A stretch of DNA of 64,000 nucleotides from Endomicrobiales bacterium (GCA_016930715.1 JAFGGC010000026.1:1-64000); one strand, 5' to 3'; shown: positions 867 to 53,737, numbered from the stretch's first letter. Notes: generated from the letters alone by a model not told the origin. Program-made: numbers and translations.

Positions 867-903
867 GATTACACAGATTTTTTAAGGCGATTACACAGAT
901 TTA
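867..903 (-). repeat. Tandem GATTACACAGATTT words at the gcvPA/gcvPB junction
   Basis: Two direct copies of GATTACACAGATTT (867-880 and 889-902), 8 nt apart, lie exactly between gcvPA and gcvPB; the second contains the gcvPA stop codon (891-893). The same word in a longer inverted arrangement is found upstream of gcvT at 3881-3971. Confidence 0.85.
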
Positions 904-2228
904 AGCGCCTCAACAAGTTTGTCTATGTCTTTTTTGGTCTTTGTCTCCGTCACGCAGAAAAGCAGGCAGTCCTTCATTTCCGGATGGAAATCTCCCAGTT
1001 CGAACGGCCCTATTATGCCGTTTGAAGCAAGCTTCTTCCTTATCTCGGGGATCTTTTTTGTTGTCTTTATGGCGAACTCGTTAAAGAAAGGTTTATCCGG
1101 GAAGACGGGTGTAAACCCGTTGATTTTTGTTATGTTTTCGAACGCGTAACGGCTGTTCTGGATGTTTATTTCGGCGAGCCTTCTGAACCCTTCCGGCCCC
1201 CAGCCTGAAAGATAGACGCAGGCGAAGAGCGCGTTCAGCGCGGCGTTCGTGCATATGTTCGACGTGGCCTTTTCGCGCCGGATGTGTTGTTCTCGGGACT
1301 GGATGGTGAGAACGAAACCTCTCCTGCCTTTGGTGTCGGTGGTCTGGCCGGCTATTCTGCCCGGCATCTTCCAGAGGAACTCCTTTTTGCAGGCCATGAA
1401 CCCGAAAGAGAAACCGCCCAGCCCCTGCCGGTTGCCCAGCACCTGGCCTTCGCCGACCGCTATGTCGGCCCCGGCCTCGCCCGGGGATTTCAGCAGTCCC
1501 AGTGAAATGGGGTTGCAGACAACTATGAGAAGCGCGCCGGAGCTTTTTACGGCATCGGCAACGGCAGAAAGGTCTTCGATTATGCCAAAAAAGTTGGGCG
1601 ATTGTATTATGAAAGCGGCTGTATTTTCATTCAATTTTGCTTTCAGCGATGCCGGGTCAACGGAGCCGGCATTGAGCTCGAAATCTGATATTTCGGTTTC
1701 GGTGCCCTGCAGGTAGGTGGACAAAACCTGCGCGTATTCGGGATGGAGCCCTTTCGAAACGCATATGCGCGTTTTCCCGGTGGTCCTTATGGCCATCAGG
1801 GCGGCCTCGGCTGTAGCGGATGCGCCGTCATACAGGGAGGCGTTCGATACGTCAAGGCCTGTTAACCCGCAGATCATGCTCTGGTACTCGAATATGGTCT
1901 GCAGGGTGCCCTGGCTTGCTTCCGGCTGGTAGGGGGTATAGGCGGTGACGAACTCGGAGCGCCCCGCCAGCTGTGGGACGACAGCGGGGATGAAATGTTC
2001 GTATATTCCGGCTCCGAGGTATGATTTGTTTTGTCCAGTTGAGGTGTTCTTGGAGGCAAGCTGCTCGAATTCGGCGGCAAGCGCCTGCTCGGAAATGCCG
2101 TCAGGTATGTTGAGTTTTTTAATCCTTGATTTTTCAGGTATTTGAGAAAATAGCTCAAGTGATTCTTTAACTCCGATTTTCTTGAGCATTTCTTCTTTTG
2201 ACCGGTCGTTTGAGGGTAAAAAATCCAT
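891..2228 (-). CDS. gcvPA: Glycine dehydrogenase (decarboxylating) subunit 1
   Basis: N-terminal half of the split P-protein, acting as a heterotetramer with GcvPB. At 445 aa it has the family's normal length, and the start MDFLPSNDRSKEEMLKKIGV matches the conserved opening of GcvPA, which supports the ATG at 2228 although no good Shine-Dalgarno precedes it. Conserved blocks include GAGIYEHFIPAVV, TAYTPYQPEASQGTLQ and QSREQHIRREKATSNIC. It lies between gcvH and gcvPB. Its last codons and stop (LKSV-TAA) are read from a copy of the AAATCTGTGTAATC repeat word that recurs just downstream, so the C-terminus seems to be shaped by that repeat. Confidence 0.97.
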   Translation of the reverse strand: MDFLPSNDRSKEEMLKKIGVKESLELFSQIPEKSRIKKLNIPDGISEQALAAEFEQLASKNTSTGQNKSYLGAGIYEHFIPAVVPQLAGRSEFVTAYTPYQPEASQGTLQTIFEYQSMICGLTGLDVSNASLYDGASATAEAALMAIRTTGKTRICVSKGLHPEYAQVLSTYLQGTETEISDFELNAGSVDPASLKAKLNENTAAFIIQSPNFFGIIEDLSAVADAVKSSGALLIVVCNPISLGLLKSPGEAGADIAVGEGQVLGNRQGLGGFSFGFMACKKEFLWKMPGRIAGQTTDTKGRRGFVLTIQSREQHIRREKATSNICTNAALNALFACVYLSGWGPEGFRRLAEINIQNSRYAFENITKINGFTPVFPDKPFFNEFAIKTTKKIPEIRKKLASNGIIGPFELGDFHPEMKDCLLFCVTETKTKKDIDKLVEALKSV

Positions 2229-2274
2229 AGTATACTGACTTAAAGTTATGCTTTAACTTTGTCCTGGCTTATCA

Positions 2275-2310
2275 GGTCATCAGATCCCGGTAGCAACCTT
2301 CGGGATGACC
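2275..2310 (-). repeat. Hairpin between gcvH and gcvPA
   Basis: The minus-strand RNA has GGTCATCCCG near one end and CGGGATCTGATGACC at the other, pairing as GGTCAT/ATGACC and CCCG/CGGG around an 11-nt loop, with an unpaired CTGAT (or its complement) in one arm. It lies 14 nt after the gcvH stop and is not followed by a T-run, so it is not a standard terminator. A smaller dyad, AAAGTTA/TAACTTT, follows at about 2241-2260. It could be an mRNA-processing or stability element in the operon, or another short dispersed repeat. Confidence 0.6.
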
Positions 2311-2324
2311 CCGCCCCGGCGTGG

Positions 2325-2702
2325 TCACTTTAAAAGCTTGGAATACTCTTCCGCGGACAGCAGTTTTTCGTATTCTGAAGGGTTATTGGACTCTATAACG
2401 AAGAAATACCCTTCGTCATACGGCGACTTGTTGACGAGTTCGGGGCTGGACGAGAGCTTGTCGTTGACGTTCACGACCGTGCCGGACACAGGCGCGTATA
2501 TGTCGAAAGCCGATTTGACTGATTCCACGACAGCGCAGGGCTGGCCCTTTGTTACCTTCTTGCCGGAGGCGGGCAGCTCCACGTGGACGACATCCGTGAT
2601 TTCGTGCTGGGCGTGGTCGGTTATGCCGACTTTTATCTTCCAATTCTCGTTTTTGGCCCATTCGTGCGTTTTCGCGTAGCGAAGATCCTTTGGTACGTTC
2701 AT
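2325..2702 (-). CDS. gcvH: Glycine cleavage system H protein
   Basis: Lipoyl carrier that shuttles the aminomethyl intermediate between the P, T and L proteins. The 125-residue protein begins MNVPKDLRYAKTHEWAK and carries the lipoylation motif ESVKSAFDIYAP, with the modified lysine near residue 65; length and fold pattern are those of bacterial GcvH. The ATG at 2702-2700 is preferred over an in-frame start 24 nt upstream because a perfect AGGAGG (2708-2713) sits 5 nt in front of it. It is flanked by two different repeat structures: GGTCAAG words on the gcvT side and a hairpin at 2275-2310 on the gcvPA side. Confidence 0.97.
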   Translation of the reverse strand: MNVPKDLRYAKTHEWAKNENWKIKVGITDHAQHEITDVVHVELPASGKKVTKGQPCAVVESVKSAFDIYAPVSGTVVNVNDKLSSSPELVNKSPYDEGYFFVIESNNPSEYEKLLSAEEYSKLLK

Positions 2703-2707
2703 TGAAA

Positions 2708-2713
2708 CCTCCT
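2708..2713 (-). promoter_or_regulatory. Shine-Dalgarno site of gcvH
   Basis: A perfect AGGAGG on the minus strand, 5 nt before the ATG at 2702. It decides the start against the in-frame upstream codon at 2726, which has no such site and would place the initiation region inside the adjacent GGTCAAG repeat. Confidence 0.85.
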
Positions 2714-2719
2714 GAAAAA

Positions 2720-2793
2720 GGGTCAAGTAGCCAAGGTCAAGGGGCCAGGTATGTCAAAGTCTTCCTTGCTACTTGGTGCTTGACCCTTGACCC
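2720..2793 (-). repeat. Inverted GGTCAAG word repeat between gcvT and gcvH
   Basis: Arm 2720-2747 reads GGGTCAAGTAGCCAAGG and continues GTCAAGGGG on the plus strand. Arm 2767-2793 contains the complementary words (TGCTACTTGG, CTTGACC, CTTGACCC). The two arms are inverted, each made of reiterated 7-8 nt words, with about 20 nt between them. The element fills the gcvT-gcvH gap and enters gcvT: its second arm encodes the last residues QGQGSSTK and the stop codon. It matches no known RNA or protein-binding site that I recognise. Confidence 0.8.
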
Positions 2794-3869
2794 TGTCTTT
2801 TATTGCGTTTATAAAACGGCCTGTCCGTCACGGTGGCCGTTTTGACCTGGCCGTGTATCTCTATGCCGAGCGAGTCGCCCGGCTTGTACTGCGAGCCGGT
2901 GTAGGCGAGCGCGATCCCCTTTTTAAGCGTCGGCGAATAAGTTCCGCTCGTCACTTTTCCCGCCTCTTTGTTGCCGCAAAAGACCCTGCACCCCGTCCTC
3001 GGTATGCCGGAATCCATTATCAAGGCCGTCAGAAAAGTCTTCGGCTTGGCTTGTTTTATCTTTAAAAGCTCGGTCTTGCCTATGAAATCCTTGTCCCAGT
3101 GTATTACCCCCCCGAGCCCGGCCTCTATGGGAGATATCGAGTCGCTTATCTCGTGGCCGTGGAGAGGCATGCAGGCCTCAAGCCGCAGGGTGTCGCGCGC
3201 CCCGAGCCCGCAGGGGCGCACTTTGGCGGCGGCCAGAAGGTCCCAGATTCTTTTGGCCTCATCAACCGACATTATCATCTCGAAACCGTCTTCGCCGGTG
3301 TAGCCGGTCCGCGCGAGCATCGAGAATTTAGGCTTGAAGTACTTGTACTCCGGTTTAATGAATCGGAAGTATCCGACGCTTTTGAGGTCATCCTCGACGA
3401 AGGTTTGCAGGATAAGCTGGGCTTCCGGCCCCTGCAGGGCTATCATGCATACCCCGGGGCTTATGTAGTCTATGGCGAGGTTTTTTGTCTTGTGTTTTTT
3501 CATCCAGGCGAGGTCTTTGGGGGTGTTGCCGGCGTTTATCACTAGGACGAAATCCCTTTCCCTGCGGTATATTATGAGGTCGTCTATGACGCCGCCCTTT
3601 TCATTTAAAAACATCGAGTATTTGGCCTGTCCGGGGATGATGAGCGGTATGTCGGCGAGGGTAAGGCGGTTCAGGAAGTTTTCGGCGTCGGCGCCCGCGA
3701 TAACGACCACGCCCATGTGCGAGGTGTCGAACATCCCGGCGCGCTGGCGCACGGCGTTATGCTCTTCGACGATGGAAGTGTACTGTATCGGCATTTCCCA
3801 CCCGCCGAATTCAACGAAACGGGCTTTCAGCTGCTGGTGTTCGACGTAAAGTGGCGTTCGGTTGGGCAT
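2769..3869 (-). CDS. gcvT: Aminomethyltransferase (glycine cleavage T protein)
   Basis: Transfers the methylene group from the GcvH aminomethyl-lipoyl arm to tetrahydrofolate and releases ammonia. 366 aa, typical length. It opens MPNRTPLYVEHQQLKARF and has the conserved GGWEMPIQY, MFDTSHMG, ALQGPEAQ, TGYTGEDGFE and RDTLRLEACMPLHGHE blocks. The ATG at 3869 is chosen over an overlapping upstream TTG because AGAAGG is suitably spaced before it. It lies downstream of lpdA after a 418-nt gap that holds a promoter, a terminator and two repeat elements. The eight C-terminal residues QGQGSSTK come from a GGTCAAG repeat arm and are unlikely to be functionally conserved. Confidence 0.97.
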   Translation of the reverse strand: MPNRTPLYVEHQQLKARFVEFGGWEMPIQYTSIVEEHNAVRQRAGMFDTSHMGVVVIAGADAENFLNRLTLADIPLIIPGQAKYSMFLNEKGGVIDDLIIYRRERDFVLVINAGNTPKDLAWMKKHKTKNLAIDYISPGVCMIALQGPEAQLILQTFVEDDLKSVGYFRFIKPEYKYFKPKFSMLARTGYTGEDGFEMIMSVDEAKRIWDLLAAAKVRPCGLGARDTLRLEACMPLHGHEISDSISPIEAGLGGVIHWDKDFIGKTELLKIKQAKPKTFLTALIMDSGIPRTGCRVFCGNKEAGKVTSGTYSPTLKKGIALAYTGSQYKPGDSLGIEIHGQVKTATVTDRPFYKRNKRQGQGSSTK

Positions 3870-3880
3870 CAAAACCTTCT

Positions 3881-3971
3881 TGATTACACGGATTCTAAAC
3901 TTTGATTACACAGATTAGGTCTCTTTGTCTTTGTCGTATCCGTGTAATCCTCTATAATCTCTGTGTAATCG
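3881..3971 (-). repeat. Inverted GATTACACGGATT word repeat upstream of gcvT
   Basis: Arm 3881-3917 contains GATTACACGGATT and GATTACACAGATTA in direct order. Arm 3938-3971 contains the reverse complements (ATCCGTGTAATCC and CTGTGTAATC). The arms are separated by about 20 nt. The element ends immediately upstream of the gcvT Shine-Dalgarno and shares its word with the gcvPA/gcvPB junction repeat. Confidence 0.85.
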
Positions 3972-4019
3972 TCGTTATGGGGCATCACGGGTCACGCCAG
4001 GGCGGAACGGCATCTAATG

Positions 4020-4184
4020 AATACCCGCCTTCGCTAAACGCGGTCTTCAATTACCGCGGCTATTCGCCGCTTTGAAACCGCAGCTGCGGCGGGTTATCCG
4101 CAGTTTCCCTTTGTTGGCGACATTCGCCGAAGCGTCTTACGCATTCATCTGCGGGTAAAACCGTGGTATTCTGCGCAGGCGGAT
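4020..4184. repeat. AATCCGCC/GGCGGATT-type palindromic element, copy 1
   Basis: On the plus strand it starts AATACCCGCCTTCGC and ends CTGCGCAGGCGGATA, so the ends are approximate inverted repeats. Inside are several hairpins: GCGGC-TATTC-GCCGC at 4056-4070, CTGCGG/CCGCAG and GGCGA/TCGCC. The CGGCTATTCGCCG core and the GCGCAGGCGG end recur in the pstS-pstC gap, and the end also recurs upstream of the gene at 7860. No coding potential. It is interpreted as a small dispersed, MITE- or REP-like element. Confidence 0.55.
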
Positions 4185-4229
4185 AAAAAAAGCGCACGTT
4201 TTGGGTGTTTCCGTTAAAGACCCGTGCAC
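4185..4229 (-). terminator. Intrinsic terminator after lpdA (possible attenuator of gcvT)
   Basis: The minus-strand RNA forms GTGCACG (4229-4223) paired with CGTGCGC (4198-4192), seven pairs including one G-U, with an inner GGGT/ACCC stem, followed directly by seven U (4191-4185). This is a textbook Rho-independent signal about 60 nt after the lpdA stop. It also lies downstream of a promoter-like sequence at 4282-4310, so it may act either as the lpdA terminator or as an attenuator in the gcvT leader. Confidence 0.75.
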
Positions 4230-4281
4230 TGTCTGGAGTTCCTTCTAAAAACCGCTTACTGTGACGGATGCCTGATGAGAA

Positions 4282-4310
4282 ATTATACTAATTTTTTTTC
4301 GGCAAATCAA
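4282..4310 (-). promoter_or_regulatory. Candidate promoter for the gcvT operon inside the lpdA 3' end
   Basis: The minus strand reads TTGATT (4310-4305), 17 nt, then a perfect TATAAT (4287-4282) that directly follows the lpdA TAG stop. The predicted start is near 4275, giving a leader of about 400 nt before gcvT. Confidence 0.5.
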
Positions 4311-5640
4311 CGCACTTTCCCGCCACGTCCTCGCAGGCGCAGTGAAGCGCCTCCGCGAGGGACGGATGGAAGAATATTTCGCGCGAGATATCGTGGATTT
4401 TAAGCCCGGCCTTCATCGCCACGCAGAGGATCGATATCATATCCTCGGCGTGAGGCCCGATTATGTGGCCGGCCAGTATCTTTCCGGTTGATTTTTCGGC
4501 CGTAATTTTGACGAAACCGGCCCTCTCGCCTTCTATGAAAGCCCTGGAGTTTGCCGTAAAAGGGAACCTGCCTGTCACGAAACTGCCTTCAGCAAGCTTG
4601 TTATCAGGGATGCCGACGCTCGCGCACGGCGGGTCGGTGAACACCACCCTTGGCACGAAATCGTAGTTAATTGTGTTTTTTTGCCCAAGCGCGTTCTCGG
4701 CGGCTGTTATGCCTTCGGCCTGAGCGGTGTATGCAAGGAACCATTTACCAGTTACGTCTCCCGCGGCAAAAATCCCGGGCGTCGTTGTTTCAAGGTATTC
4801 GTTGACGGAGATACCCGTGGTCGTATAGGTTATTTTTGCCGCCCCAAGGTTCAGGCCGCTGATATTTGCTTTCCTTCCCACCGCCACGAGAATCCTATCC
4901 TGGCCTTCCGCGTACGGTTCTATGCCATCGATGCCGGTGTTTATGTGCAGACCCTGTCTTGTGAGTATCTTTTTGAGTTCCTGGGCGATCTCGGTGTCCT
5001 CGTTGGGAAGAATCTGCGGTTCTTTTTCAACAATTGTTATTTCGCTTCCCAGGCGCGAGTAAATCAGCCCGAGTTCAATTCCTATAGCCCCTCCGCCTAT
5101 CACGAGCATCTTTCCCGGGACATCGGAATGAAGAAGGGCGTCGGTCGAGTCAATTACTTTTATGTGATCGATTTCCATCCCAGGGATGCTTTTAGGCGAT
5201 GAGCCGGCGGCGATTATTACCTTGTCGGCCGTTACCTGTTTTTTTGTTCCGTCGGACATTGATATCTCTATGAGTTTTTCGTGCAGGAAAGCGCAGTTGC
5301 CGAAAGCAAGTTCTATGTTGTATCCGGATATGAGGTTCTGCAGGGATTTTGCGAGGAGTTCGGTGTTCTTGGTTTTTTTCTGGAATATGAGGCGCGAGTC
5401 CAGCGATTTGTCTTCGGGTTCGATGCCGAACCAGGAAGCTTTTTTGAGCCTTAACGGAAGCTGTGTGGCTTCCCAGAGGAATTTTGTGGGCACGCATCCG
5501 ATGTTGAGGCAGGTTCCGCCCGGCGAAGCCCGTTCGACGAGAAGGACGGAGCTTCCAAGCTGCGCCGCGCGAACGGCGGCTGAATAGCCGGCCGGCCCGG
5601 CGCCTATGACTATGATGTCAAATTTCTTGTGGTTTTCCAT
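4288..5640 (-). CDS. lpdA: Dihydrolipoyl dehydrogenase (glycine cleavage L protein)
   Basis: FAD enzyme that reoxidises the dihydrolipoyl arm with NAD+. 450 aa from the ATG at 5640. It has the FAD Rossmann motif IGAGPAGYSAA, the redox disulfide in GGTCLNIGCVPTK, the NAD motif VIGGGAIGIELG, and the C-terminal catalytic His-Glu in HPSLAEAL. Position next to gcvT suggests it serves glycine cleavage, although it could also serve other dehydrogenases. Oddity: between LHINTGIDGIEPYAEGQ and DRILVAVGRK the usual strand-rich segment of roughly 25 residues is missing, so the NAD domain looks shortened. The in-frame TTG at 5649 lies too close to the -10 box to be the start. Confidence 0.93.
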   Translation of the reverse strand: MENHKKFDIIVIGAGPAGYSAAVRAAQLGSSVLLVERASPGGTCLNIGCVPTKFLWEATQLPLRLKKASWFGIEPEDKSLDSRLIFQKKTKNTELLAKSLQNLISGYNIELAFGNCAFLHEKLIEISMSDGTKKQVTADKVIIAAGSSPKSIPGMEIDHIKVIDSTDALLHSDVPGKMLVIGGGAIGIELGLIYSRLGSEITIVEKEPQILPNEDTEIAQELKKILTRQGLHINTGIDGIEPYAEGQDRILVAVGRKANISGLNLGAAKITYTTTGISVNEYLETTTPGIFAAGDVTGKWFLAYTAQAEGITAAENALGQKNTINYDFVPRVVFTDPPCASVGIPDNKLAEGSFVTGRFPFTANSRAFIEGERAGFVKITAEKSTGKILAGHIIGPHAEDMISILCVAMKAGLKIHDISREIFFHPSLAEALHCACEDVAGKCVDLPKKN

Positions 5641-5653
5641 TGGATGCAACAGG

Positions 5654-5682: not shown

Positions 5683-5712
5683 ATGGGCATGTATGTGTCT
5701 GAGGATAGGCTG

Positions 5713-10309: not shown

Positions 10310-10328
10310 TTTATTGGCCCTCAAAGCC

Positions 10329-10414
10329 ATAGGACATAATTAAACATATAACTATATAAATAATATACCATATGTCCTATTATATGTCAAGTAGTATGAT
10401 AAAATATGTCCTAT
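10329..10414 (-). promoter_or_regulatory. Three TATGTCCTAT operator sites around the fic promoter
   Basis: An exact 10-mer TATGTCCTAT occurs at 10371-10380 and 10405-10414 and, inverted, at 10329-10338. One copy is upstream of the -35 box, one exactly fills part of the -35/-10 spacer and one lies in the leader. A fourth partial copy (TATGTC) overlaps the -35. The geometry fits repression by the HTH domain of the Fic protein. Confidence 0.7.
10362..10390 (-). promoter_or_regulatory. Promoter of the fic gene
   Basis: Minus strand: perfect TTGACA (10390-10385), 17-nt spacer, TATATT (10367-10362). The predicted start is near 10355, giving a leader of about 45 nt to the ATG at 10309. Confidence 0.75.
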
Positions 10415-10490
10415 TGCATTCTGACGCGGGAAGTGGCGGCCGGGGGATGGTTCGGTTGAACCGGGGCCTGTTTGATACGGGTGCGGTGTG

Positions 10491-11018: not shown

Positions 11019-11681
11019 TCAGCCGTTCCTTTCTTCCTGATGGTGCTTTATCACTCTGCCCTCTGTCAGGTACATCACGTCTTCGCAGATGTTCGTGGAA
11101 AGGTCCGCTATGCGCTCCAGGTTTCCTGTTATGCGCAGTACGTGCAGGGCTTGTTCCACAGTCTGAGGGTTCTTGCGCATTATCTCGGTGAGCTCCGCGG
11201 TTATCTTGTCCTTGAAATCGTCCACCAGGTTGTCGCTCTCGCATACCTTGCGCGCCACGGCGGAATTTTCGTTTATGAAGGCGTTTATGCCGTTCGACAG
11301 CATCTTTACAGTAACTTCAGCCATTTTCGGCAGGTCTATGAACGGTTTTATCTGAGGCTTGTCTATCAGAAAAAGCGCGCTTTCAACGATGTTGACCGCG
11401 TGGTCGCCCATCCGCTCGAGGTCGTTGCCCATGCGCAGTATCATAAGGAGCAGTCTGAGGTTCTTCGCCTTGGGCTGGTACTGGGCGATGAGGTTTGTTG
11501 AATGCTCGTCTATCTCTATCTCGTAGGCGTTGGCTTTAGGTTCGTCAGATACTATTATTTCCTTGAGCTTGGACCGGTTCTTTTTGAGAAGCCCGTCAAT
11601 GCTGTCGGAGACCATTTTTTCAACCAGATTGGCGTAGTCTATGAGGTCTTTTTTGAGCGATACGAGTTTTTCTTCAATCAT
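11019..11681 (-). CDS. phoU: Phosphate transport system regulator PhoU
   Basis: Negative modulator that links the PstSCAB transporter to PhoR kinase activity. 220 aa, all-helical with the duplicated PhoU three-helix bundle: first repeat around NDLERMGDHAVNIVE and second around GNLERIADLSTNICEDV, whose E/DxxxD pairs are the metal-binding signature. Starts MIEEKLVSLKKDL from an ATG at 11681 with GGAG upstream. It sits downstream of pstB, separated by 125 nt largely taken up by an inverted word repeat, and upstream of arsC. Confidence 0.96.
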   Translation of the reverse strand: MIEEKLVSLKKDLIDYANLVEKMVSDSIDGLLKKNRSKLKEIIVSDEPKANAYEIEIDEHSTNLIAQYQPKAKNLRLLLMILRMGNDLERMGDHAVNIVESALFLIDKPQIKPFIDLPKMAEVTVKMLSNGINAFINENSAVARKVCESDNLVDDFKDKITAELTEIMRKNPQTVEQALHVLRITGNLERIADLSTNICEDVMYLTEGRVIKHHQEERNG

Positions 11682-11696: not shown

Positions 11697-11802
11697 AGCG
11701 TAGAGCGGATAGCGTTTAGCGTATAGAAGAACAAAAATTATTGATCACAGGTTTTTCTGGCATTGTCTTTTACTATCCGCTATACGCCGCGCGCTATACG
11801 CT
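11697..11802 (-). repeat. Inverted AGCGTATAGCGGATAG word repeat between pstB and phoU
   Basis: Arm 11697-11726 and the reverse complement of arm 11773-11802 are both built from the words AGCGTATAG and GCGGATAGCG. The spacer of 46 nt is AT-rich. The element begins 4 nt after the pstB stop and ends just before the phoU ribosome binding site, so it lies within the operon and lacks a T-run. Confidence 0.8.
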
Positions 11803-11806
11803 ATTC

Positions 11807-12706
11807 TTATCCGAACTTGCCGGACAAATATTCTTCTGTCTGTTTCTGCTTTGGCACGGTGAAGACCTTTTCGGTCTGGCCGAACTCGACGAGCTGGCCG
11901 AGGTACATGAATGCCGTGTAATCGGAAACCCTTGCCGCCTGCTGCATGTTGTGGGTGACTATCACGATAGTATACTCTTTTTTAAGCTCGAGTATCAGCT
12001 CCTCTATCTTTTTCGTGGATATGGGGTCCAGGCTCGCGCAGGGTTCGTCAAAGAGTATGACTTCCGGTTCAACGGCAAGGCAGCGCGCGATGCAGAGGCG
12101 CTGCTGCTGTCCGCCCGAAAGGCCTAGGGCGTTATCGTTGAGCCTGTTTTTTACCTCGTTCCACAGGGCGGCTTTTTCAAGCGATTCAATGACCTTGTGC
12201 CTGATAAAGCCACTGTCCTTCCGTCCGTTTATCTCAAGGCCGTAGGAAATATTTTCGAGTATGGTCTTGGGAAATGGGTTTGGTTTCTGGAAGACCATCC
12301 CTACCCGCCTTCTTATGTCGACGACGTCCACCCCGGGCGCGTTTATGTCTTTTCCGTCGAGGAATATCTTTCCGTCAAGCCTGGAATTCGCAATGAGGTC
12401 GTTCATGCGGTTTAACAGGCGGATAAAGGTGGATTTGCCGCATCCCGAGGGCCCGATTATGGCGGTAACCTTGTTTTCGTGTATGTTCATGTTGACGTTC
12501 GAAAGGGCGCGCGATTTGCCGTAATAGAAGTTGACGTTTTGCGAGTGCATTCTCGCGAGGTTTACACCGTTAGAGACAGCCCCGTTTTTGGCGGAACGGA
12601 ATTGATTGGCTCTATCGTTTGGTCTTGCCGTGGACTCATTCCTGCCGGCATTTCCGTCAGAAGCTTCTTTTATTCCATCTCTAACGGGGCGGATGTCAAT
12701 GTCCAT
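11807..12706 (-). CDS. pstB: Phosphate ABC transporter ATP-binding protein PstB
   Basis: ATPase of the high-affinity phosphate importer. Walker [10 protein letters not shown], signature [13 protein letters not shown], Walker B EVILFDEP and the H-loop [11 protein letters not shown] are all intact. The family start corresponds to [16 protein letters not shown] at residue 53; the first 52 residues are a polar, low-complexity extension ([18 protein letters not shown] and so on). The long start at 12706 is supported by GGAGG 7 nt upstream and by an 11-nt overlap with the pstA stop, whereas M53 has no ribosome binding site. Order pstS-pstC-pstA-pstB-phoU is canonical. Confidence 0.96.
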
Positions 12707-45233: not shown

Positions 45234-47141
45234 TCAGGTCTTGCTTTCCTTTTCCTTGCCGTCGCGCGAATAATACTTGTAGGAGTAATAGTAGCTGTAG
45301 CCGTACCCGTAATAGTTGCCCATATCGGAAGTCTTCACGTTGTTGAGCACTACTCCCAAAACCGGCATTCTCACGTTCGTGAGCTGGTCCTTGGCCCGCT
45401 TGAGGGCACGGCGGGCCATCCTGCCGACCTGATAGACGATGATGGTACCTGTGGCGTAAGCGCTTGTAACCATAGGGTCGGCGAAAAGCAGGACGGGAGG
45501 GCTGTCTATTATCACGAGCTCATACTGCTCCGTTATTTCCTTCATTATTGATTTGAACTGGGCCGAATTGAGCACCTCAAGAGGATTCTGCAATGACGGG
45601 CCGGAAGTGATGATGCTGAGGTTCTCGATGCCCGGAGAGCGGAGCACTTGTTCGGTCCCTATCCCGCCCATCAGGAAGTCCGTTGTGGTCTTGACTATCT
45701 CCTTGAGAGATTTGTTGTTCAGCACGCTGTCGGCAAGCCCGGGCGTGCGCGTGATGCCGAAAAGCATGTGCAGGGTAGGCCTGCGCAGGTCGGCCTCCAT
45801 CAGGAGCGTCTTTATGCCGGACTGGGCGGCAGTAAGAGCGAAATTGCTCGCGGTGAGGGTTTTCCCTTCTCCTATGCCCGCGCTCGTGATGGCTAATATT
45901 TTTGCTTTGCCCGACGCTTCCTTTGAAAACGCGAATTTAAGATTGGTCAGCATCGTGTGGTAAGATTCAACGAAAGGGGCCTTTGCCTCGTGGAAAAAAG
46001 TAAGGCGGGACCTCATTGTGTTAACGCGCTGGTCCCTCGACTGACGTCCCCTGATCACAGGGATGGCTCTAGCTTCCGTCTCGACGTGCGGAATTATGCC
46101 GAGGACGGGAAGCTCGAGGTATTTTTCCACGTCCTCTATCGTGCCGATTGACGTGTCAAGGTTCTCTATGACGAGCGCGAGGACAAATCCGACAAATATC
46201 CCTAAAAACAGACCGAGCGACATATTCATCGTTTTGTTGGGTTTTATAGGATAAGTCGGCTCTAAGGCGGGCGTCACGATGAAAGCGGACTGAACGCGGT
46301 CGGCTTCCGATATCTGTGCTTCCTTGAACCGTTTGGCAAGCAGCGTGTACAGTTCTTCGTTTATTTTAACTTCCCTCGAAAGCCTCGCATATTCTAGTTC
46401 CTCGGCCGGCAGCTGCCTCATTTCATTCTCTATGTTTTCCGTCTGTTGCCGTATTTTCTGTATTTCGGGGTGTTGTTCCGTGTATTTCTTCAGGAGCTCG
46501 CTTTTTTTGTTCTCGAGGTCCATCAGGCGCTGGGATAGGAAGCCTCCGATACCCTTTGCCCCGCTCTGTTCGGTGTATTTGCGGAGCTTGTCCTCGCTTT
46601 TCTTGAGCTTCATCTCGGCGTCGCTGACCTGTATTTCGATGAATTCCCTGAGTTCCCTCGCCCTGCGGGACCGGTCCTCGATGCCCTTCTGGATGTATAC
46701 TTCGGCCATCGTGTTGGCAAGCTTCGCCGTTTCCGATGGGTCGGAAGAGATGGCGAATATGTTTATAAGGTTGGTGTCGCCGACACGTTCGGCGTTAATC
46801 TTTCCCTGTATGCCGGATACAATTCCCTGCCTTTCGCCTTCCGAGGACGAGGACGATACGAGCCCAAGTTTTTTAGCGGCAAGTTCGGCCACGACGGCGC
46901 TTTTTATGATTTTTACCTCCGTGTTCATCGCGGTGTAGACGTCGAACATCTCCGTTGCCACGCCAGGTATCGCGAGGTTCGGCTCCACCTTGACTGTGGC
47001 CATGGCCTGGTATATCTGCGTCTGCAGGTTGGTGAATATTATTACGGAGCCGAGAACGGCTATCAGCGTGAAAAAGATAATCCATCTTCTTCTTTTTATG
47101 ATTCGCCAGTAATCCTGTATGCTCAGTTCATATTGCGCCAT
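45234..47141 (-). CDS. Wzc-like polysaccharide chain-length regulator and tyrosine autokinase
   Basis: 635 aa. N-terminal Wzz domain between two membrane helices (residues about 17-37 and 305-325) with a long periplasmic coiled coil (EMKLKKSEDKLRKYTEQSG and the LKKYTEQHPEIQ region). The cytoplasmic BY-kinase domain has Walker A TSAGIGEGKTLTASNFA, Walker A' LLMEADLRRPT and Walker B LVIIDSPPVLLF. The C-terminal tail has the tyrosine cluster YGYGYSYYYSYKYYS, the site of autophosphorylation. AGGGG precedes the ATG at 47141. Works with the Wza-like exporter encoded just upstream to control polymer length and export. Confidence 0.93.
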   Translation of the reverse strand: MAQYELSIQDYWRIIKRRRWIIFFTLIAVLGSVIIFTNLQTQIYQAMATVKVEPNLAIPGVATEMFDVYTAMNTEVKIIKSAVVAELAAKKLGLVSSSSSEGERQGIVSGIQGKINAERVGDTNLINIFAISSDPSETAKLANTMAEVYIQKGIEDRSRRARELREFIEIQVSDAEMKLKKSEDKLRKYTEQSGAKGIGGFLSQRLMDLENKKSELLKKYTEQHPEIQKIRQQTENIENEMRQLPAEELEYARLSREVKINEELYTLLAKRFKEAQISEADRVQSAFIVTPALEPTYPIKPNKTMNMSLGLFLGIFVGFVLALVIENLDTSIGTIEDVEKYLELPVLGIIPHVETEARAIPVIRGRQSRDQRVNTMRSRLTFFHEAKAPFVESYHTMLTNLKFAFSKEASGKAKILAITSAGIGEGKTLTASNFALTAAQSGIKTLLMEADLRRPTLHMLFGITRTPGLADSVLNNKSLKEIVKTTTDFLMGGIGTEQVLRSPGIENLSIITSGPSLQNPLEVLNSAQFKSIMKEITEQYELVIIDSPPVLLFADPMVTSAYATGTIIVYQVGRMARRALKRAKDQLTNVRMPVLGVVLNNVKTSDMGNYYGYGYSYYYSYKYYSRDGKEKESKT

Positions 47142-47168
47142 AATACCCCTGAAAAAACTTCAAACTAC

Positions 47169-47233
47169 AATCTCGAATTTCGAAAAGTATCTTCCGGCAT
47201 ATTGACAATTCGAAATTGCATTTTCGAAATTGG
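47169..47233 (-). repeat. Inverted TTTCGAAATT word repeat between the Wza-like and Wzc-like genes
   Basis: Arm 47169-47188 (CAATCTCGAATTTCGAAAAG) and arm 47204-47233 (ACAATTCGAAATTGC, then ATTTTCGAAATTGG) share the TTTCGAAATT/AATTTCGAAA word in opposite orientations. The element fills most of the 98-nt gap between the two coupled export genes; it begins 6 nt past the Wza-like stop and has no T-run. Confidence 0.75.
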
Positions 47234-47239: not shown

Positions 47240-48823
47240 CTATATTCCTCCCCTTATCACCAGTATCAGCGATATGAGCGTCAGCCACGGGAGGATATTC
47301 GAAATGAACCAGCCGGCCGAAGCGATGCTCTTCTTGGGCACGAATATGGTATCGCCCGGCTGAAGCTCGACGTCGTTTTGTTTTCCCTGCAATATTTTTT
47401 TCAGGTTAACCTTCATCACTTTCTGTTCATTGCCTTCGGTCTTTCGTATTATGGAAACCTTTTTCAGCGATGCCGTGTCGGTAAAACCCCCCGCTATTGA
47501 TACGAGCTCAAGGAGTTTGATGCCGGGCCTGTGGTCGTAATAACCCGGGTGCCCGACATCACCCAGCAGGGCGATTTTCGGAGAGCCTTTCTGTACCTCG
47601 ATTATGTCGCCGGGCTCAAGAAGAAAGTCCTTTGAAAAATCCCCGGTGCTGACTATTTCTTCAACGTTCACGGTATGGATCTGACGTTTAGTAGGCGGCC
47701 CCCTGTACACCTTTACTTCCCTGCGGTTCGCGTTCGAACTGAAGCCGCCGATCGAAGATATGAACTCCATCAACCTCTGGTTTTCCTTGTACGGGTATGC
47801 GCCCACCGCCTTGACCTCGCCGGTTATGAACACCTGTCTTCGCGAGAACTGTTTTATAGTTACCGTCACTTGCGGATTGGATATGAATTGCCCGAGTCTT
47901 TCGGACATTTCGGTTTCGAGGGCTTTCACGGTTAGCCCCTTTGCCTGCAGAGAGCCTATCAGCGGGAAAGATATGTTGCCGTCGGGCTGTACTATGACCT
48001 CCCGGGACAATTCCTCAGCCGGATAGATTATTATACCCAGCACGTCCCCTATTTCTATCTGGTAGACGGCTTTAACGGAATCGGCGGCGGACGCCGTGAC
48101 AGTTGAAACCGCGACCTGTTCCGAAGCTGTGCTGACGGTTACCTCTATTATTTCATCCGGACTTTGTTTTTCGGCGGATATTATCCAGAAATTATCCTCC
48201 CTTTTTACCCTGTACGGGGTGTTTTCCCTGAGTTCGGCCGTCGTCCTCACTATGTACGGAGGTTCATCGTCGAACTGTTCCGTTGTCACGTTTGCGAACA
48301 TTCCTTCATTGGGAGATATATCCCGCCCGATGTCGGATACCGTGCTTTTTGCGCCGTAGAAATCAACGACTATTTTAGCGGGTTTTTCAGGGTCGGCGTC
48401 TTTCATAAGGAAGTAATTTGACCTCTCGACGCCTGACGTCATCACGAGGACCCTTGATTCGCCCGGGGTTTCCGTTATAAGGATTTTTTCGACTCTGCCG
48501 ATAGCTTCCGCGGCGGGCGTTGTTTTAGTCTGTTTGGCGGCCGGAGGCCGGACGGAGCTGACCGCGGGCTTGTTTATGGCTTCGAGTTCTCTGTTGAGCG
48601 GGGCGAGGTTCACGCCGGAGTCCTTGTATTTGTTCGATATCCTGTTGAGTATGTAATACTTGTCGTTGGTGTTCAGGTCTTTCTGTTTGGACACTCTTTG
48701 GTAGTATTTGATGTCATTCTGAAGGGTTTCGGAGGTAAGCCGTTCAGAGTACGCCCTCGGGACGGCTAAAAAAAATAGAAGTGCAAGAACGGTAAAAAAT
48801 ATATTATTCCGTTTTATTATCAT
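47240..48823 (-). CDS. Wza-like polysaccharide export protein with AMIN domain
   Basis: 527 aa. Signal peptide MIIKRNNIFFTVLALLFFLA to about residue 27. An AMIN-like domain at about 105-210 (RVLVMTSGVERSNYFLM, PAKIVVDFYGAKS), then the poly_export domain (YQIEIGDVLGIIIYP, VQPDGNISFPLIGSLQAKG) and two SLBB domains (FITGEVKAVGAYPYKE; LGDVGHPGYYDHRPG). It ends in a membrane helix (WFISNILPWLTLISLILVI), the usual Wza position. No lipobox cysteine is seen, unlike classical Wza. The AMIN domain, usually found in cell-wall amidases and secretins, may anchor the exporter to peptidoglycan. Confidence 0.88.
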   Translation of the reverse strand: MIIKRNNIFFTVLALLFFLAVPRAYSERLTSETLQNDIKYYQRVSKQKDLNTNDKYYILNRISNKYKDSGVNLAPLNRELEAINKPAVSSVRPPAAKQTKTTPAAEAIGRVEKILITETPGESRVLVMTSGVERSNYFLMKDADPEKPAKIVVDFYGAKSTVSDIGRDISPNEGMFANVTTEQFDDEPPYIVRTTAELRENTPYRVKREDNFWIISAEKQSPDEIIEVTVSTASEQVAVSTVTASAADSVKAVYQIEIGDVLGIIIYPAEELSREVIVQPDGNISFPLIGSLQAKGLTVKALETEMSERLGQFISNPQVTVTIKQFSRRQVFITGEVKAVGAYPYKENQRLMEFISSIGGFSSNANRREVKVYRGPPTKRQIHTVNVEEIVSTGDFSKDFLLEPGDIIEVQKGSPKIALLGDVGHPGYYDHRPGIKLLELVSIAGGFTDTASLKKVSIIRKTEGNEQKVMKVNLKKILQGKQNDVELQPGDTIFVPKKSIASAGWFISNILPWLTLISLILVIRGGI

Positions 48824-49798: not shown

Positions 49799-49810
49799 TT
49801 TTCAAAAACA

Positions 49811-49839: not shown

Positions 49840-49856
49840 GAAAAAATATGTAAAAT
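49828..49856 (+). promoter_or_regulatory. Promoter of the ABC exporter genes (near-leaderless)
   Basis: TTGATT (49828-49833), 17 nt, TAAAAT (49851-49856). The ATG at 49870 follows 13 nt later with no Shine-Dalgarno. The two back-to-back promoters share their -35 region. Confidence 0.6.
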
Positions 49857-49869
49857 CATATGCAAATAT

Positions 49870-50529
49870 ATGGATATTTCCATCAACGGGCTCAACAAGG
49901 GCTTCCATACGGCAGGATCAAGGAAAAAGGTCCTTACGGATCTTCATCTGGAATTGAAAAATCCGTGCATTTTTGCGCTGATGGGCCCCAACGGGTCCGG
50001 AAAGACCACCCTCCTCAAGATTCTTGCCACCCTCATACTGCCCGATTCGGGCGAAGTAAGGTTTAACGGCAAGGACCTCGTCAAAGACGGAGCCTTTATA
50101 AGGAAGATCGCAGGCTTCGTGATGGACGCCGAGCATAGCTTCTATCAAATGCTGACGCTTGAAGAAAACCTGAAGTTTTTCGGAGGGCTCCGCGGAGTCT
50201 CGGGTTCCGACTGCGAACGGAGGACGCGCGAACTCGCCGATGATTTCGGTATAGGCGGATTTTTGGGCGAGAAAGCGGCGCATTGCTCTTCTGGGACCAT
50301 GCAGAAAGCGGCCTTCGTGAGGGCGCTTCTGCACGAACCGTCGGTGCTGCTGGTGGACGAATTCGAAAAAAGCCTGGACGAGGATTCGCAATCGCGCATA
50401 ACACGCAGGCTTAAAAACCTGAAGGAAACAAAGGGAACGACGGCATTGTGCGTCACGCACGACAGGCGGTGGGCCAAAGACCACGCCGACGCGGCAGGAA
50501 CGATCGCGGGAGGGCGGATAGAAAAATGA
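49870..50529 (+). CDS. ABC transporter ATP-binding protein
   Basis: 219 aa. Walker A GPNGSGKTT, Walker B VLLVDEF with catalytic Glu, D-loop SLDED and H-loop CVTHD are intact. The signature motif is divergent: HCSSGTMQKAA in place of LSGGQ. Drives the permease that follows (ATGA overlap at 50526-50529). Exports an unknown substrate; the location between EPS export and surface-protein genes suggests an envelope component. The start at 49870 is preferred to the upstream in-frame start because the promoter leaves no room for that one. Confidence 0.85.
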   Translation: MDISINGLNKGFHTAGSRKKVLTDLHLELKNPCIFALMGPNGSGKTTLLKILATLILPDSGEVRFNGKDLVKDGAFIRKIAGFVMDAEHSFYQMLTLEENLKFFGGLRGVSGSDCERRTRELADDFGIGGFLGEKAAHCSSGTMQKAAFVRALLHEPSVLLVDEFEKSLDEDSQSRITRRLKNLKETKGTTALCVTHDRRWAKDHADAAGTIAGGRIEK

Positions 50530-51290
50530 ACCTTCTCTTGGCGTTCTTGTTCAGGGACCTGGCAGTCGAAAAAAGCTACCGGTTCAACCTCTTCGTCAAG
50601 CTTCTCGCCATATTCTCGCAGGTGGCGATATTCTATTTTCTGTCGAGGTATATCGAAAAGCCGGAGTATTTCGCTTTCGTTCTCGTGGGGCTTGTTTTCA
50701 GCTCATTCTTCCAGTTCTGGCTCAATGTTTTCGCAGAAAATATCAGGCAGGAGCAGTTCTGGGGCACGCTCGAGGCGCTTTTTTCGGCGCCTGCGGAACA
50801 CGTATACGTGATACTGTCGTCCTCGTTCGGAAAATTCGTGTTCAATATAATAGGCATGGCCACGTACGTGGTTCTAGGAGCGGTTGTGTTCGGAATGGTT
50901 TTCAGGCTCAATGCCGCGCTTTTTCTGCTCATCCTGCTGTTGAACGTAGCGGCGTTCGCGGGCTTGGGCCTTGTTTCCGCGGGTTTCATTACTTATTTCA
51001 AAAGGGGCGATCCGGCAAGCTGGTTTGTCGCGTTGTTGGTCGACCTCTTGAGCGGGGTGTATTTCCCCGTTTCAGTGTTCCCGGAAAAAATCCGAAGGGT
51101 ATCCGAATTCCTCCCCACTACGGCGGCGCTCGATATATGGAGAAACAGCCTTCTCGGCACCGGCAGAGTCGGTTTTGGGGATGTGGCATTGCAGGCGTTG
51201 TGGGGCGCGCTGCTGATGGCGGCGGGATTGGTTTCGATAAACGCGGCCATAAGAGGCGTCAAGAAAAAAGGCGACCTGGGCAATTATTGA
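50526..51290 (+). CDS. ABC-2 type transporter permease
   Basis: 254 aa, six predicted membrane helices beginning FLFRDLAVEKSYRFNLF, with FVLVGLVFSSFFQFWLN and the C-terminal ABC-2 region PTTAALDIWRNSLLGTG (conserved P-x-T/L-Y-type turn). ATGA overlap with the ATPase gene fixes the start. Type-2 ABC exporters of this size move polysaccharides, lipids or drugs. Confidence 0.85.
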   Translation: MNLLLAFLFRDLAVEKSYRFNLFVKLLAIFSQVAIFYFLSRYIEKPEYFAFVLVGLVFSSFFQFWLNVFAENIRQEQFWGTLEALFSAPAEHVYVILSSSFGKFVFNIIGMATYVVLGAVVFGMVFRLNAALFLLILLLNVAAFAGLGLVSAGFITYFKRGDPASWFVALLVDLLSGVYFPVSVFPEKIRRVSEFLPTTAALDIWRNSLLGTGRVGFGDVALQALWGALLMAAGLVSINAAIRGVKKKGDLGNY

Positions 51291-51315
51291 GGTTTAATGG
51301 AAAGTGCCTTTGAGT

Positions 51316-52158
51316 TTAGTTTGAAAACAGGAGTTTGACGGGCGCGGAAGCGATTTTAACGGAAACCAGGAGTGGCCTAAGCATCCTGAAAAAAATGAGC
51401 GCCGACCTGTTTTTGATGTTGTACCTTGATATGAGGAATTCGTCGGTCGGGAAAAGACTTGAGAGCAAATAAGCGGTCTTTTTCCTGAACGGCAGGAACC
51501 AAAAGCGCATCAAGTGTCCTTTTGATGAAAATGCCGCCCGCCGCACGACTTTTCCGAAAATACCGCACCCTTCTTCAGTGCCGGAATAAATTTCGTAAGC
51601 CGAATGGATGCCGTACTTCCTGAGTATCTCGCGCACCTCGCCGCGGGCGAGGTGTTCCTTCCATTTGTTCTCCAGAAGGCGCAGGTCGTCCTTCCATTTT
51701 TCTTCTTCCATCGAGTGGTGTATGCAGGCGTGGGCGATCAAGTGCGCGTACATCTGAAGCGGGGGCAGGTGGTGCATCCCAGGAAGGCCTTCGACCGGGT
51801 GTCCCAGGCTCTGTTCGAACAGTTCCTCGTTCTCCCGTGCCGAAAGGTACCAGAGGTTGTCGGTTATGTCGATGTGGGCGATTCTTGAACTGGAAAAAAA
51901 GGAACAGGGTTCGCCCGGGCAGGGCCCGTAACCTTCTTCAAGAAGCGTTTGTCTCAAGGTCTCGACGTCTTTTCTTTTCACTAGGATGTCGATGTCTATC
52001 ATCTCGCGGGTCCGGGAGTACTCCGGAAAAAGGGCGATAAGGGCGGCTCCCTTTAGGAGTACCGTCCGTATACCTTTCGAACGCAGTGTTTCCGCCAATT
52101 CGGTTAACTGCGAAAAAATACGAATGTTGTCCGACAGGACGGAACCGGCGTTTTTCAT
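51316..52158 (-). CDS. Nucleotidyltransferase family 5-like protein (NTP_transf_5)
   Basis: 280 aa. LRSKGIRTVLLKGAALIALF and REMIDIDILVKRKDVETLRQ are the GS/acidic hallmarks of the uncharacterised nucleotidyltransferase family; HLIAHACIHHSM in the middle is a conserved helix. Usually found near serine-kinase (HPr-like) or lasso-peptide and surface-glycan genes. The last about 70 residues are basic and hydrophobic. Starts 1 nt after the PorV stop. Confidence 0.75.
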   Translation of the reverse strand: MKNAGSVLSDNIRIFSQLTELAETLRSKGIRTVLLKGAALIALFPEYSRTREMIDIDILVKRKDVETLRQTLLEEGYGPCPGEPCSFFSSSRIAHIDITDNLWYLSARENEELFEQSLGHPVEGLPGMHHLPPLQMYAHLIAHACIHHSMEEEKWKDDLRLLENKWKEHLARGEVREILRKYGIHSAYEIYSGTEEGCGIFGKVVRRAAFSSKGHLMRFWFLPFRKKTAYLLSSLFPTDEFLISRYNIKNRSALIFFRMLRPLLVSVKIASAPVKLLFSN

Positions 52159-52159
52159 T

Positions 52160-53692
52160 CTATTTGACCTCTATTGAAAAGGGCCCGAATATATCGAGAT
52201 AGAATATGAAATAGTCGTGTTTTTCGTCGTACTCGTCCATCTTCTTGTGTTTAATTTCGTTGCCTTCAAAAGTTTTAACGGAAAACTCTCCCAGGTCTTT
52301 CGGAATCCTGACCTTCACCGCGCATTTCATAAGAGGATACGGAAAGCTCGTCCTTATCACGATGTTCCTGTAGACCTTCCCTTGGCCGGTCTGTTCGCCT
52401 ATCTCGAAAACCTGGTCCGACGGATTCGCCCTGACGCTCCCCTGCAGGTAAGCGACGGTGCTTTCGGAAGATTTTCCGGCTACGGAATAAAGGGAACGCG
52501 TGGCGGAGGCCTGCCTTCTGGTGACGGAGGTCTTGAGCGAATAGAACGTGAAATCTTCGGGAGCGGGCGGAAGCGCCTTTTTCTCCGGCTCGGCAGGAAG
52601 CGCCGGCGGCGCGGGTATTGCCGTTGTCTCGGGTTCCGGAAGTTTTTCGTCTGCTTTTTCAGGAAGCCTGGCAGATACCTTCTTTTTATCGGAAAAGAGT
52701 ATCGAAAGTGACATCCTATGCGAATCGCCGAGCACGCTGTAGGGTACGAATGCGTAATCCAGCCTGACGTTGGTTTCGCCGGCCTTGAAGTTGAAGCCGA
52801 GGCCTGCCGAAAGGCCGTGCAGGTCGCCGAGTTCAAGCCCGTTCAGGCGGTACCTGTATCCGGCCCTTATTGAAAGAAGCTCGACCGGGAAGTATTCCCA
52901 CCCGGATGAAATGAAAAGGTAATTGTCTACCGGCTGGTTGAGGTCGAACGTGGTGGTTAGCCTGTCCGTGATCCTGTAGGCAGCCGCGAGTTTCACGTTC
53001 ATCGGCAAGGGGTAGCCCTTTTCCCTGAATTTTATTTCGGTTCCCACGTGCTGGAACGCCAGGCCCAACGAAAGCGGGCTCGTATCGAAGCTATACAGCG
53101 CGCCGGCATCTACCGCAACCCCGGAGGCGCTTTCGGTATCGATCGTCTGCTGTATGTATTTTAAACTGCCGCCGAGAGACAGGTTTTTGTTGATGAAACG
53201 CGCGTACGACAGGTGCGCCGCAGTGTCGTAGGCCTTGAAATATCCTTCTATGGAAGTAAGGGGTTCGTAGGGGTCGGCCTCGTTCAGGCCCGAGCGCCTT
53301 TCAATGTCCTCCGGCGTGTAGAGGCCGTAGGCCGCTATCGCGGCGTATCCCTTGAATACGGGGAAGGCATAGCCGGCGAAGTCGTGCTTGATGTTCTCGA
53401 AAGACTCGTTATGCGTGACGCTGAGCTCTTTTTGTTCGAGCCGGGCCAGGCCCGCGGGGTTCCAGTACAGGGCGGACGCGTCGTCGGCAAGCGCTCCGAA
53501 AGCCGAACCCATAGCCACGGCCCTCGAGCCTATCCCGTATTTTAAAAACGTCGCGGAGGTCGTGCCGGCCTTGGGATGGATCTGGACCTCGCCGAAAAGG
53601 CAGTAAACAGTGAACAGTGAATAGTAAATAGTAAAAACAAAAGTAATTACTATACGGAAGGTCGAAGATGAGTATAAAGGTACTGTTCGCAT
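52160..53692 (-). CDS. PorV/PorQ-like outer-membrane protein with C-terminal extension
   Basis: 510 aa. The signal peptide (h-region about 13-34) is followed by a PorV-type barrel: GTTSATFLKYGIGSRAVAMG, ADDASALYWNPAGLARL and further strand pairs up to about residue 330. A proline/alanine/glutamate-rich linker (about 340-385) leads to a C-terminal beta domain ending GPFSIEVK. PorV is the type IX secretion shuttle barrel in Bacteroidetes; many related barrels occur in other diderm phyla without T9SS, so function is open. Residues 19-32 of the signal peptide are encoded by a repeat arm (see the repeat at 53599-53737). Confidence 0.8.
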   Translation of the reverse strand: MRTVPLYSSSTFRIVITFVFTIYYSLFTVYCLFGEVQIHPKAGTTSATFLKYGIGSRAVAMGSAFGALADDASALYWNPAGLARLEQKELSVTHNESFENIKHDFAGYAFPVFKGYAAIAAYGLYTPEDIERRSGLNEADPYEPLTSIEGYFKAYDTAAHLSYARFINKNLSLGGSLKYIQQTIDTESASGVAVDAGALYSFDTSPLSLGLAFQHVGTEIKFREKGYPLPMNVKLAAAYRITDRLTTTFDLNQPVDNYLFISSGWEYFPVELLSIRAGYRYRLNGLELGDLHGLSAGLGFNFKAGETNVRLDYAFVPYSVLGDSHRMSLSILFSDKKKVSARLPEKADEKLPEPETTAIPAPPALPAEPEKKALPPAPEDFTFYSLKTSVTRRQASATRSLYSVAGKSSESTVAYLQGSVRANPSDQVFEIGEQTGQGKVYRNIVIRTSFPYPLMKCAVKVRIPKDLGEFSVKTFEGNEIKHKKMDEYDEKHDYFIFYLDIFGPFSIEVK

Positions 53693-53737
53693 GGTAATCC
53701 GCCTTTTTTTACTACTGACTCATTACTGTCTACTGCC
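53599..53737 (-). repeat. Inverted CAGTGAACAGTGAATAG word repeat spanning the PorV start
   Basis: Arm 53599-53638 has words GGCAGTAAACAGTG, AACAGTGAATAG, TAAATAGTAAAAAC; arm 53706-53737 has the inverted words (TTTTTACTACTGAC, TTACTGTCTACTGCC). About 67 nt lie between, including the PorV start codon. The right arm starts right after the stop codon of the PQQ-propeller gene (53738-53740), and the left arm is inside the PorV signal peptide. The loop also contains AATCCGCC (53696-53703), the border of the other element family. Confidence 0.8.

Follow-up and report, generated by a model that had tools for sequence, protein, structure and literature searches.

The genome of an uncultured Endomicrobiales bacterium (GCA_016930715.1) raises the question of whether short repeats that differ in sequence but agree in layout and position could come from one process. 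The window examined here, JAFGGC010000026.1:1-64000, comprises the initial 64 kb of a contig 69 kb long in a draft genome of 2.3 Mb, and the original prediction had singled out six sites in it, assigned to five unrelated word families, as a possible undescribed class of intergenic repeat. All six are indeed present, with coordinates that proved exact or off by a few bases (Table 1). They exemplify a class of imperfect hairpins of 70-130 nt, with arms made of a reiterated, usually 7-nt word, that share an architecture and a polarity, are dispersed through their genomes, lie at gene borders, and have been gained or lost and replaced whole at orthologous gaps. We consider it probable that these heptad hairpins are many small families of non-autonomous inverted-repeat elements, which disperse and are replaced whole in place.

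Period-7 arrays and their inverted partners

Statistics for the bacterium's own genome (G000) cover 883 kb, and the scan for periodicity covers 436 kb. In the latter, degenerate arrays of period 7 number 35, 22 and 12 at thresholds of 11, 13 and 15, whereas dinucleotide shuffles yield 2 and 2, 1 and 0, and 0 and 0; period 7 stands about 15-fold above the shuffles, with the other periods from 3 to 24 far behind. The arrays tend to be paired, such that 58% of 57 have an inverted partner of the same word within 170 nt, compared with 8% when arrays are matched to flanks taken from elsewhere and 4% for partners in direct orientation. Individual words recur far above expectation: GATTACACNGAT has 61 matches where about 0.3 are expected, and AGCGNNT has 57 where the reversed control pattern has none. 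All 17 two-strand clusters of GATTACAC run plus then minus and are convergent, and the GATTACACAGATT family, to which these 61 matches and 17 clusters belong, is a longer repeat with 13-nt words every 21-22 nt but has the same layout.

Enrichment of period 7 recurs in the order-mates G001, G002, G004 and G006. G012 and G014, which have a higher AT content, show it weakly, and G003 and Escherichia coli lack it. The hairpin architecture likewise recurs, mostly with other words, in neighbouring families (G001, G002 and G006) as well as in a further family of this phylum; carrier genomes hold 3-20 copies per 100 kb, and 100 kb of E. coli K-12 contained no heptad hairpin. Generality beyond the Elusimicrobiota is suggestive only: at control loci of other phyla, mostly AT-rich, period 7 is not clearly above other periods, and single cases with inverted arms were seen in a Clostridiaceae metagenome-assembled genome (MAG; locus L079), in Clostridium frigidicarnis (L068) and in a Chloroflexi MAG (L105).

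Heptamer arrays were also seen within genes. Four with different words lie in one Ig-like repeat protein gene (G000 C1:42772-43443, L027), each near the homologous position of successive domains, so that the word varies by domain with no change in length. One uninterrupted reading frame (G000 C28:98730-126185), some 9150 codons long, contains two internal arrays.

Anatomy of the hairpins

A collection of 124 hairpins was assembled from eight genomes, with median values of 88 nt for the span, 31 nt for the arm, 26 nt for the loop and 79% for arm complementarity. Words are many relative to elements, with 13 consensus words for 24 elements in G000, 21 for 34 in G002 and 17 for 21 in G071. The predicted RNA folds have a median z of -5.3 (61 elements), and the clearest of them, in the rpsS-rplV gap of G092 and the rplV-rpsC gap of G213, alternate 5 base pairs with 2x2 internal loops. 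Across all words, mismatches recur at lags of 7 (0.36) and 14 (0.37) as against 0.18-0.28 at other lags. A typical arm is about 30 nt of an imperfectly repeated, usually 7-nt word, with five positions paired and two kept mismatched.

The AGCG family illustrates this layout. Its unit is TAGCG followed by two variable letters, and in 51 of 53 neighbouring pairs the arms point inward. The variable pairs tend to be TA-GA-TT in the left arm and, read inward, TA-TA/TT-GA in the right, so that variable letters come to stand opposite one another without matching. Within elements these positions agree at 0.397, below the 0.475 obtained after swapping arms among elements (P = 0.005); neighbouring units have the same variable pair with a frequency of 0.11, compared with 0.23 at random. 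Snap-back copying of the arms was rejected for this family, because arms agree less within than between elements.

Polarity extends beyond the AGCG family. The inward strand is purine-rich (0.64) and is the richer in stop codons in 98 elements as against 13, whereas other inverted repeats divide 519:519; in G092 the sample is small and the polarity undecided. The possibility that the arms were selected to present stops in every frame was considered and rejected: random heptamers of the same composition give more of them (0.55 versus 0.33), so that base composition suffices. Loops, too, have features in common. Among genomes of the second family (G071, G092, G213 and G229) an apical AAGGAACTCCTT-like core is shared by hairpins with different arm words; TAAGGAA forms this core in 10 loops out of 55, alongside a variety of arm words, compared with 0.2 in shuffles. 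In the bacterium's own order AAAGTC is enriched, being found in 11 of 85 loops (25 of the 85 are masked by N and uninformative), and an AAAG...CTTT-like pattern occurs in 11% of loops and 1% of shuffles. The masked bases belong to a 2.7-kb contig of G001, and recomputation without them leaves the placement and periodicity statistics the same. Contrary to what had been supposed, the word families are not wholly unrelated: convergence of the arms and a purine-rich inward strand are common to them, as is, in part, a core.

Empty, occupied and exchanged orthologous gaps

Whole hairpins have been gained and replaced in place at orthologous gaps of ribosomal operons. In the S10 operon of family f16, the rplV-rpsC gap is 1-27 nt long and free of hairpins in genera g45 and g51, and all eight genomes of genera g71, g39 and g43 have a hairpin of 78-92 nt there, beginning at the stop codon. 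The word is TAGCGTA in G213 and G229, TAGCGAA/TAGTGAA in G221 and G222, of the AGTGTAG type in G071, and CAGTGAC in G058, G092 and G207. In a tree of rpsS, rplV and rpsC, G071 and G207 are sisters (support 89) with G092 next; the CAGTGAC hairpin in rplV-rpsC, however, is common to G207 and G092 and differs in G071, and the TAGCGAA hairpin in rpsS-rplV is common to G071 and G092, spacer included. This conflict between tree and hairpin sharing implies that each of the two gaps has seen at least one replacement, in place, of a hairpin as a whole.

Further gaps of the ribosomal operons show the same word, different words and empty states side by side, including words of 6, 8 and 9 nt, and G071 and G092, members of one genus, provide another occupied and empty pair. 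In the own order, G002 has a 77-nt rplV-rpsC gap with a CAGACCA hairpin, whereas G006, of the same family as G002, has a plain gap of 20 nt; the G002 hairpin indicates two independent occupations of this gap, in lineages that are far apart within the phylum. The gcv operon carries different words or none across G000, G001, G002, G003, G004 and G006.

Placement at gene borders

Positions relative to genes rest on simple gene calls of our own and not on a published annotation, and 121 of the hairpins could be placed: 110 lie between co-directional genes, 6 between convergent and 3 between divergent genes, and 2 inside genes. The median distance is 8 nt from the preceding stop codon and 22 nt to the start that follows, and many hairpins sit between the stop codon and a Shine-Dalgarno sequence. 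Close proximity to both stop and start is seen in 35% of hairpins and in 7% of other inverted repeats in the same genomes (P = 4e-11), a control that falls well short of the hairpin frequency. The proposed targeting of gene borders is nevertheless not supported as stated. The co-directional share, 92% of elements outside genes, matches the background of 89% among all gaps of at least 40 nt, so that much of the placement may be survivorship in packed operons; in roomy gaps there is a modest preference for the quarter next to the stop codon (61% of hairpins against 39%, P = 0.015). Intrinsic terminators were rejected as the rule, as a run of five T residues follows the stem in only 3 of 110 elements.

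Dispersal and the search for an enzyme

Four genomes of the order contain 57, 45, 143 and 11 matches to the AGCG word, and most of the 295 genomes of the phylum that were sampled contain none. Two families in G002 have conserved interiors at 5-6 loci, with copies alignable over their full length, and an 80-nt element of G229 has partial matches at many loci in G071 and G207. Three other short repeats (L322, G229 C141: 14111-14150, 979-1023 and 13801-13854), one of which directly adjoins a heptamer hairpin, were found at dozens of loci in G213, G071, G092 and G207.

As had been noted, the window has no transposase or reverse transcriptase to explain the sites. Genome-wide there are four Y1 transposase genes and one reverse transcriptase gene, the latter on contig C1 with one heptamer array adjoining it; that its product belongs to a group II intron is no more than a guess. 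A link to REP-associated tyrosine transposases (RAYT), where REP denotes repetitive extragenic palindromic sequences, was rejected since the flanks of the four Y1 genes carry other repeats and no heptad hairpins. An autonomous element was also considered, in the form of a frame between two GATTACAC half-arms (C28:79133-79640); this frame, GxxExxY-like as named by eye, has no marks of a mobility gene and was set aside. The window and five loci gave no Rfam match at the gathering score.

Several REP-like sequences came to light during these comparisons. Repeats of GGAATTAGGGACGTAG and ATGGGACGTAGTTAG, ending in GTAG, lie directly upstream of a Y1 transposase gene (G000 C30:87307-87450). A dispersed family on contigs C1a and C2 of G002 (L142-L146, L297-L314) has a REPIN-like interior of GGTGTCC...GGATACC hairpins, with AAAATGC heptamer arms outside, and two AGCG hairpins of G001 (L198, L211) have the GC-rich sequence CCGCGCCTGCCGGCGGGCAGGG at the same point in the left arm.

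Sites in the window

Table 1. Repeat elements in the 64-kb window
Element	Position	Context	Remark
Direct pair of GATTACACAGATT	867..901 (copies 867-879, 889-901)	Junction of two glycine dehydrogenase subunit genes, both -	Half-element
Hairpin, word GGTCAAG	2718..2798	Between gcvT (2769-3872, -) and gcvH (2325-2702, -)	
Hairpin, two GATTACACRGATT words in each arm	3882..3971	Directly upstream of gcvT	Fold z = -4.6
Hairpin, word AGCGNNT, 4 units per arm	11697..11802	Between ABC-transporter ATPase gene (11807-12706, -; probably pstB) and phoU (11019-11681, -)	
Hairpin, word AATTTCG/TTCGAAATT	47162..47230	Between polysaccharide-export gene (47240-48823, -) and chain-length determinant/tyrosine kinase gene (45234-47141, -)	
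Hairpin, word CAGTGAA/TAGTAAA	53598..53738	Between secreted PQQ/Por-tail protein gene (53738-56293, -) and outer-membrane protein gene (52160-53692, -)	Fold z = -4.8

The layout described for these sites holds with some exceptions. Inverted arms are present at five of the six; the first site is a direct pair with no inverted partner, and its second copy contains the stop codon of gene 891-2228. At the last site the right-hand arm would code for the hydrophobic part of a predicted signal peptide if the upstream ATG of the next gene is used, so that the hairpin would not be wholly in the gap. An arm of the GGTCAAG hairpin contains the stop codon of the gcvT frame, and the ribosome-binding site CAGGAGG comes after the hairpin.

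Two other inverted repeats were seen in the window. The gcvH-gcvPA gap (2240-2330) has a different, GC-rich one (GGTCATCCCGAAGGTTGCTACCGGGATCTGATGACC, minus strand), which is not a heptamer hairpin, and a large imperfect one at 10323-10420, with 43-nt arms (74%) around AGGACATA...TATGTCCTA, lies in the gap before a gene ending at 10330 and is not related to the heptamer words. The gcvPA protein has its nearest named relatives among Endomicrobium-like Elusimicrobiota (54-57% identity); the order-mates G001-G006 show 57-65% identity in this protein, and the relatives returned include none from the bacterium's own family.

Discussion

These observations are consistent with the following course of events. 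Copies of a hairpin would disperse through the genome by means of a putative enzyme, as suggested by the dispersed, partly alignable copies and by the occupied and empty states of orthologous sites. They would survive almost only between co-directional genes, right after stop codons, where an imperfect hairpin with a stop-rich inward strand presumably does little harm, and they would be cotranscribed with the operon, the RNA adopting an interrupted stem. From time to time the hairpin at a given gap may be swapped as a whole, which would leave the orthologous gaps of sister species with different words.

The common generating process that the original prediction envisaged gains partial support from the single architecture, with many words and a shared polarity, found genome-wide and in related genomes; a search of the bacterium's own genome for the linked enzyme that it suggested seeking revealed neither a transposase nor any other enzyme tied to heptad hairpins. 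Several further points weigh against dispersal and replacement of mobile elements. Most words align in their arms only, and for many the spacers do not align, so that the copies of a word may not all go back to one ancestor. Just one candidate for a target duplication was seen, TAAGAG/TAAAGAG in G071 compared with the empty G092 site, and none is reliable. Orthologous hairpins can also persist, as the left arm at rplV-rpsC is identical between G213 and G229, which implies stability over about 9% divergence unless replaced. Words with periods of 6, 8 and 9 are present as well, and the comparable heptamers of Xanthomonas are mostly kept in place between two species and have no link to mobile elements (PMC4692102).

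Could the hairpins instead have arisen where they stand? Simple-sequence repeats of seven nucleotides may form by replication slippage, with words that arise locally and drift; this is the literature's explanation for the excess of 7-nt repeats, bacterial repeats of 5-11 nt being most often heptamers in the account of Mrazek 2007 that PMC4679880 and PMC4692102 cite, and arrays with drifting words do exist, for example at G000 C2:12513-12570. We disfavour slippage, and think it quite improbable, as it does not make nearly invariably convergent arms or place identical words at tens of unlinked loci, and it fits poorly with neighbouring AGCG units that share their variable pair below chance, with arms that agree less within than between elements, and with sister species that differ by a whole word in one gap yet have retained the word of another. 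Selection for RNA structure is an improbable alternative as well, in which each gap needs some hairpin, for mRNA processing, insulation, translational coupling or the joining of a split ribosome-binding site, and the word is free to drift as long as the arms match. Retention of a hairpin at rplV-rpsC across three genera despite word changes is what it predicts, and in G213, G229, G221 and G222 the only Shine-Dalgarno sequence there precedes the hairpin, as it does in hairpin-free relatives, such that the predicted fold would bring it next to the start codon. Yet a Shine-Dalgarno motif follows the hairpin in 32 of 63 close cases (51%, with a background of 59%), its lack there does not predict one before the hairpin (P = 0.29), and a split ribosome-binding site was accordingly rejected as a general function, holding for single cases only. 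Genera g45 and g51, moreover, manage without a hairpin in the same operon, and the variable positions avoid pairing and do not covary.

It is likewise very doubtful that the hairpins are a mixture of ordinary types, namely REP/REPIN sequences, miniature inverted-repeat transposable elements (MITEs) and terminators, that merely look alike. Such a mixture would accommodate the one G002 family with a REPIN-like interior (GGTGTCCCGCTTTGCGGGAC ... TCCCGCTTTGCGGGATACC) inside heptad arms, and the presence of at least one of the four Y1 genes beside REP-like repeats ending in GTAG. The Y1 genes, however, are not flanked by heptad words, and the scarcity of T-runs and the lack of an Rfam match speak against terminators and known RNAs; families of fixed sequence do not predict a common 7-nt periodicity, polarity and word swapping, and a polarity and core common across words argue against a chance mixture. 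We favour dispersing families of non-autonomous elements. A broader proposal, which we advance tentatively and regard as rather unlikely, is that the hairpins form one superfamily over several phyla, in which a dedicated putative process keeps the hairpin frame (length, polarity, apical core and 5+2 stem) and rewrites the arm word as a unit, and of which the STRR, GGGAATC and TAACTGA repeats would be members.

Absence, presence and exchange at ribosomal-operon gaps of sister species make the origin of the hairpins directly testable by comparison of strains. If mobile, they would be a very abundant class of element, at up to about 20 per 100 kb and, by extrapolation, hundreds per genome, located within essential operons, and there would be an enzyme to find.

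Comparison with known repeats

The closest known kind is that of heptameric intergenic repeats, and the designation of an undescribed class is too strong, as such repeats have been published with one word in Xanthomonas (PMC4692102) and as single-word arrays in Beggiatoaceae and cyanobacteria (PMC4679880). The GGGAATC (GGGNATC) heptamers of Xanthomonas (Rehm et al. 2015, PMC4692102) occupy gaps of aligned genes, close to stop codons; they have a degenerate unit, mostly in about 4 copies, form 70-75 convergent inverted pairs per genome, are transcribed, overlap stop codons, and vary in length and sequence between species at the same gap, and the same paper covers the Nostoc heptamer GGGGA(C/T)T (PMC4692102). 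The heptad hairpins resemble the Xanthomonas repeats in their 7-nt degenerate unit, aligned-gene gaps, polarity, convergent pairs and purine-rich inward strand. They differ in that the Xanthomonas and Nostoc repeats have one G-rich word per genome, discussed as a G-quadruplex, whereas the words described here mostly lack G-runs; multi-word families, an interrupted 5+2 stem, a shared core and whole-word replacement are not reported there (PMC4692102). TAACTGA direct repeats are found in Beggiatoaceae, cyanobacteria and Bacteroidetes (MacGregor 2015, PMC4679880). They share with the heptad hairpins a 7-nt unit, an intergenic position directly against stop and start codons, stops in every frame and a patchy occurrence across distant groups, but they have one word, in direct arrays upstream of start codons, with one inverted repeat in 170 sets.

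The short tandemly repeated repetitive (STRR) heptamers of heterocystous cyanobacteria are intergenic, with several words per genome, and reportedly occur inside the gene of a structured RNA, RNase P RNA (Vioque 1997, as cited); STRR are described as tandem arrays, and the heptad hairpins have inverted arms. REP/REPIN sequences are, like the hairpins, short, dispersed, extragenic and palindromic, but are marked by a fixed palindrome, a GTAG-type tag and a linked RAYT (Y1), none of which was found for heptad hairpins; no GTAG tag was seen by eye in the listed elements. MITE-like elements (ERIC, BOX and Correia/NEMIS) are also about 100 nt long and intergenic, with inverted ends and no gene of their own, and are often transcribed; each, however, is one sequence family, whereas here the arms are arrays of a word that varies. 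The elements described here thus consist, as heptameric repeats do, of degenerate tandem 7-nt units that are mainly intergenic, between aligned genes and near stops, but they are not confined to one or a few fixed words per genome. Heptameric intergenic repeats have so far been reported word by word, with no agreed origin and with slippage as the default; the present data tie many words into one architecture and argue against slippage.

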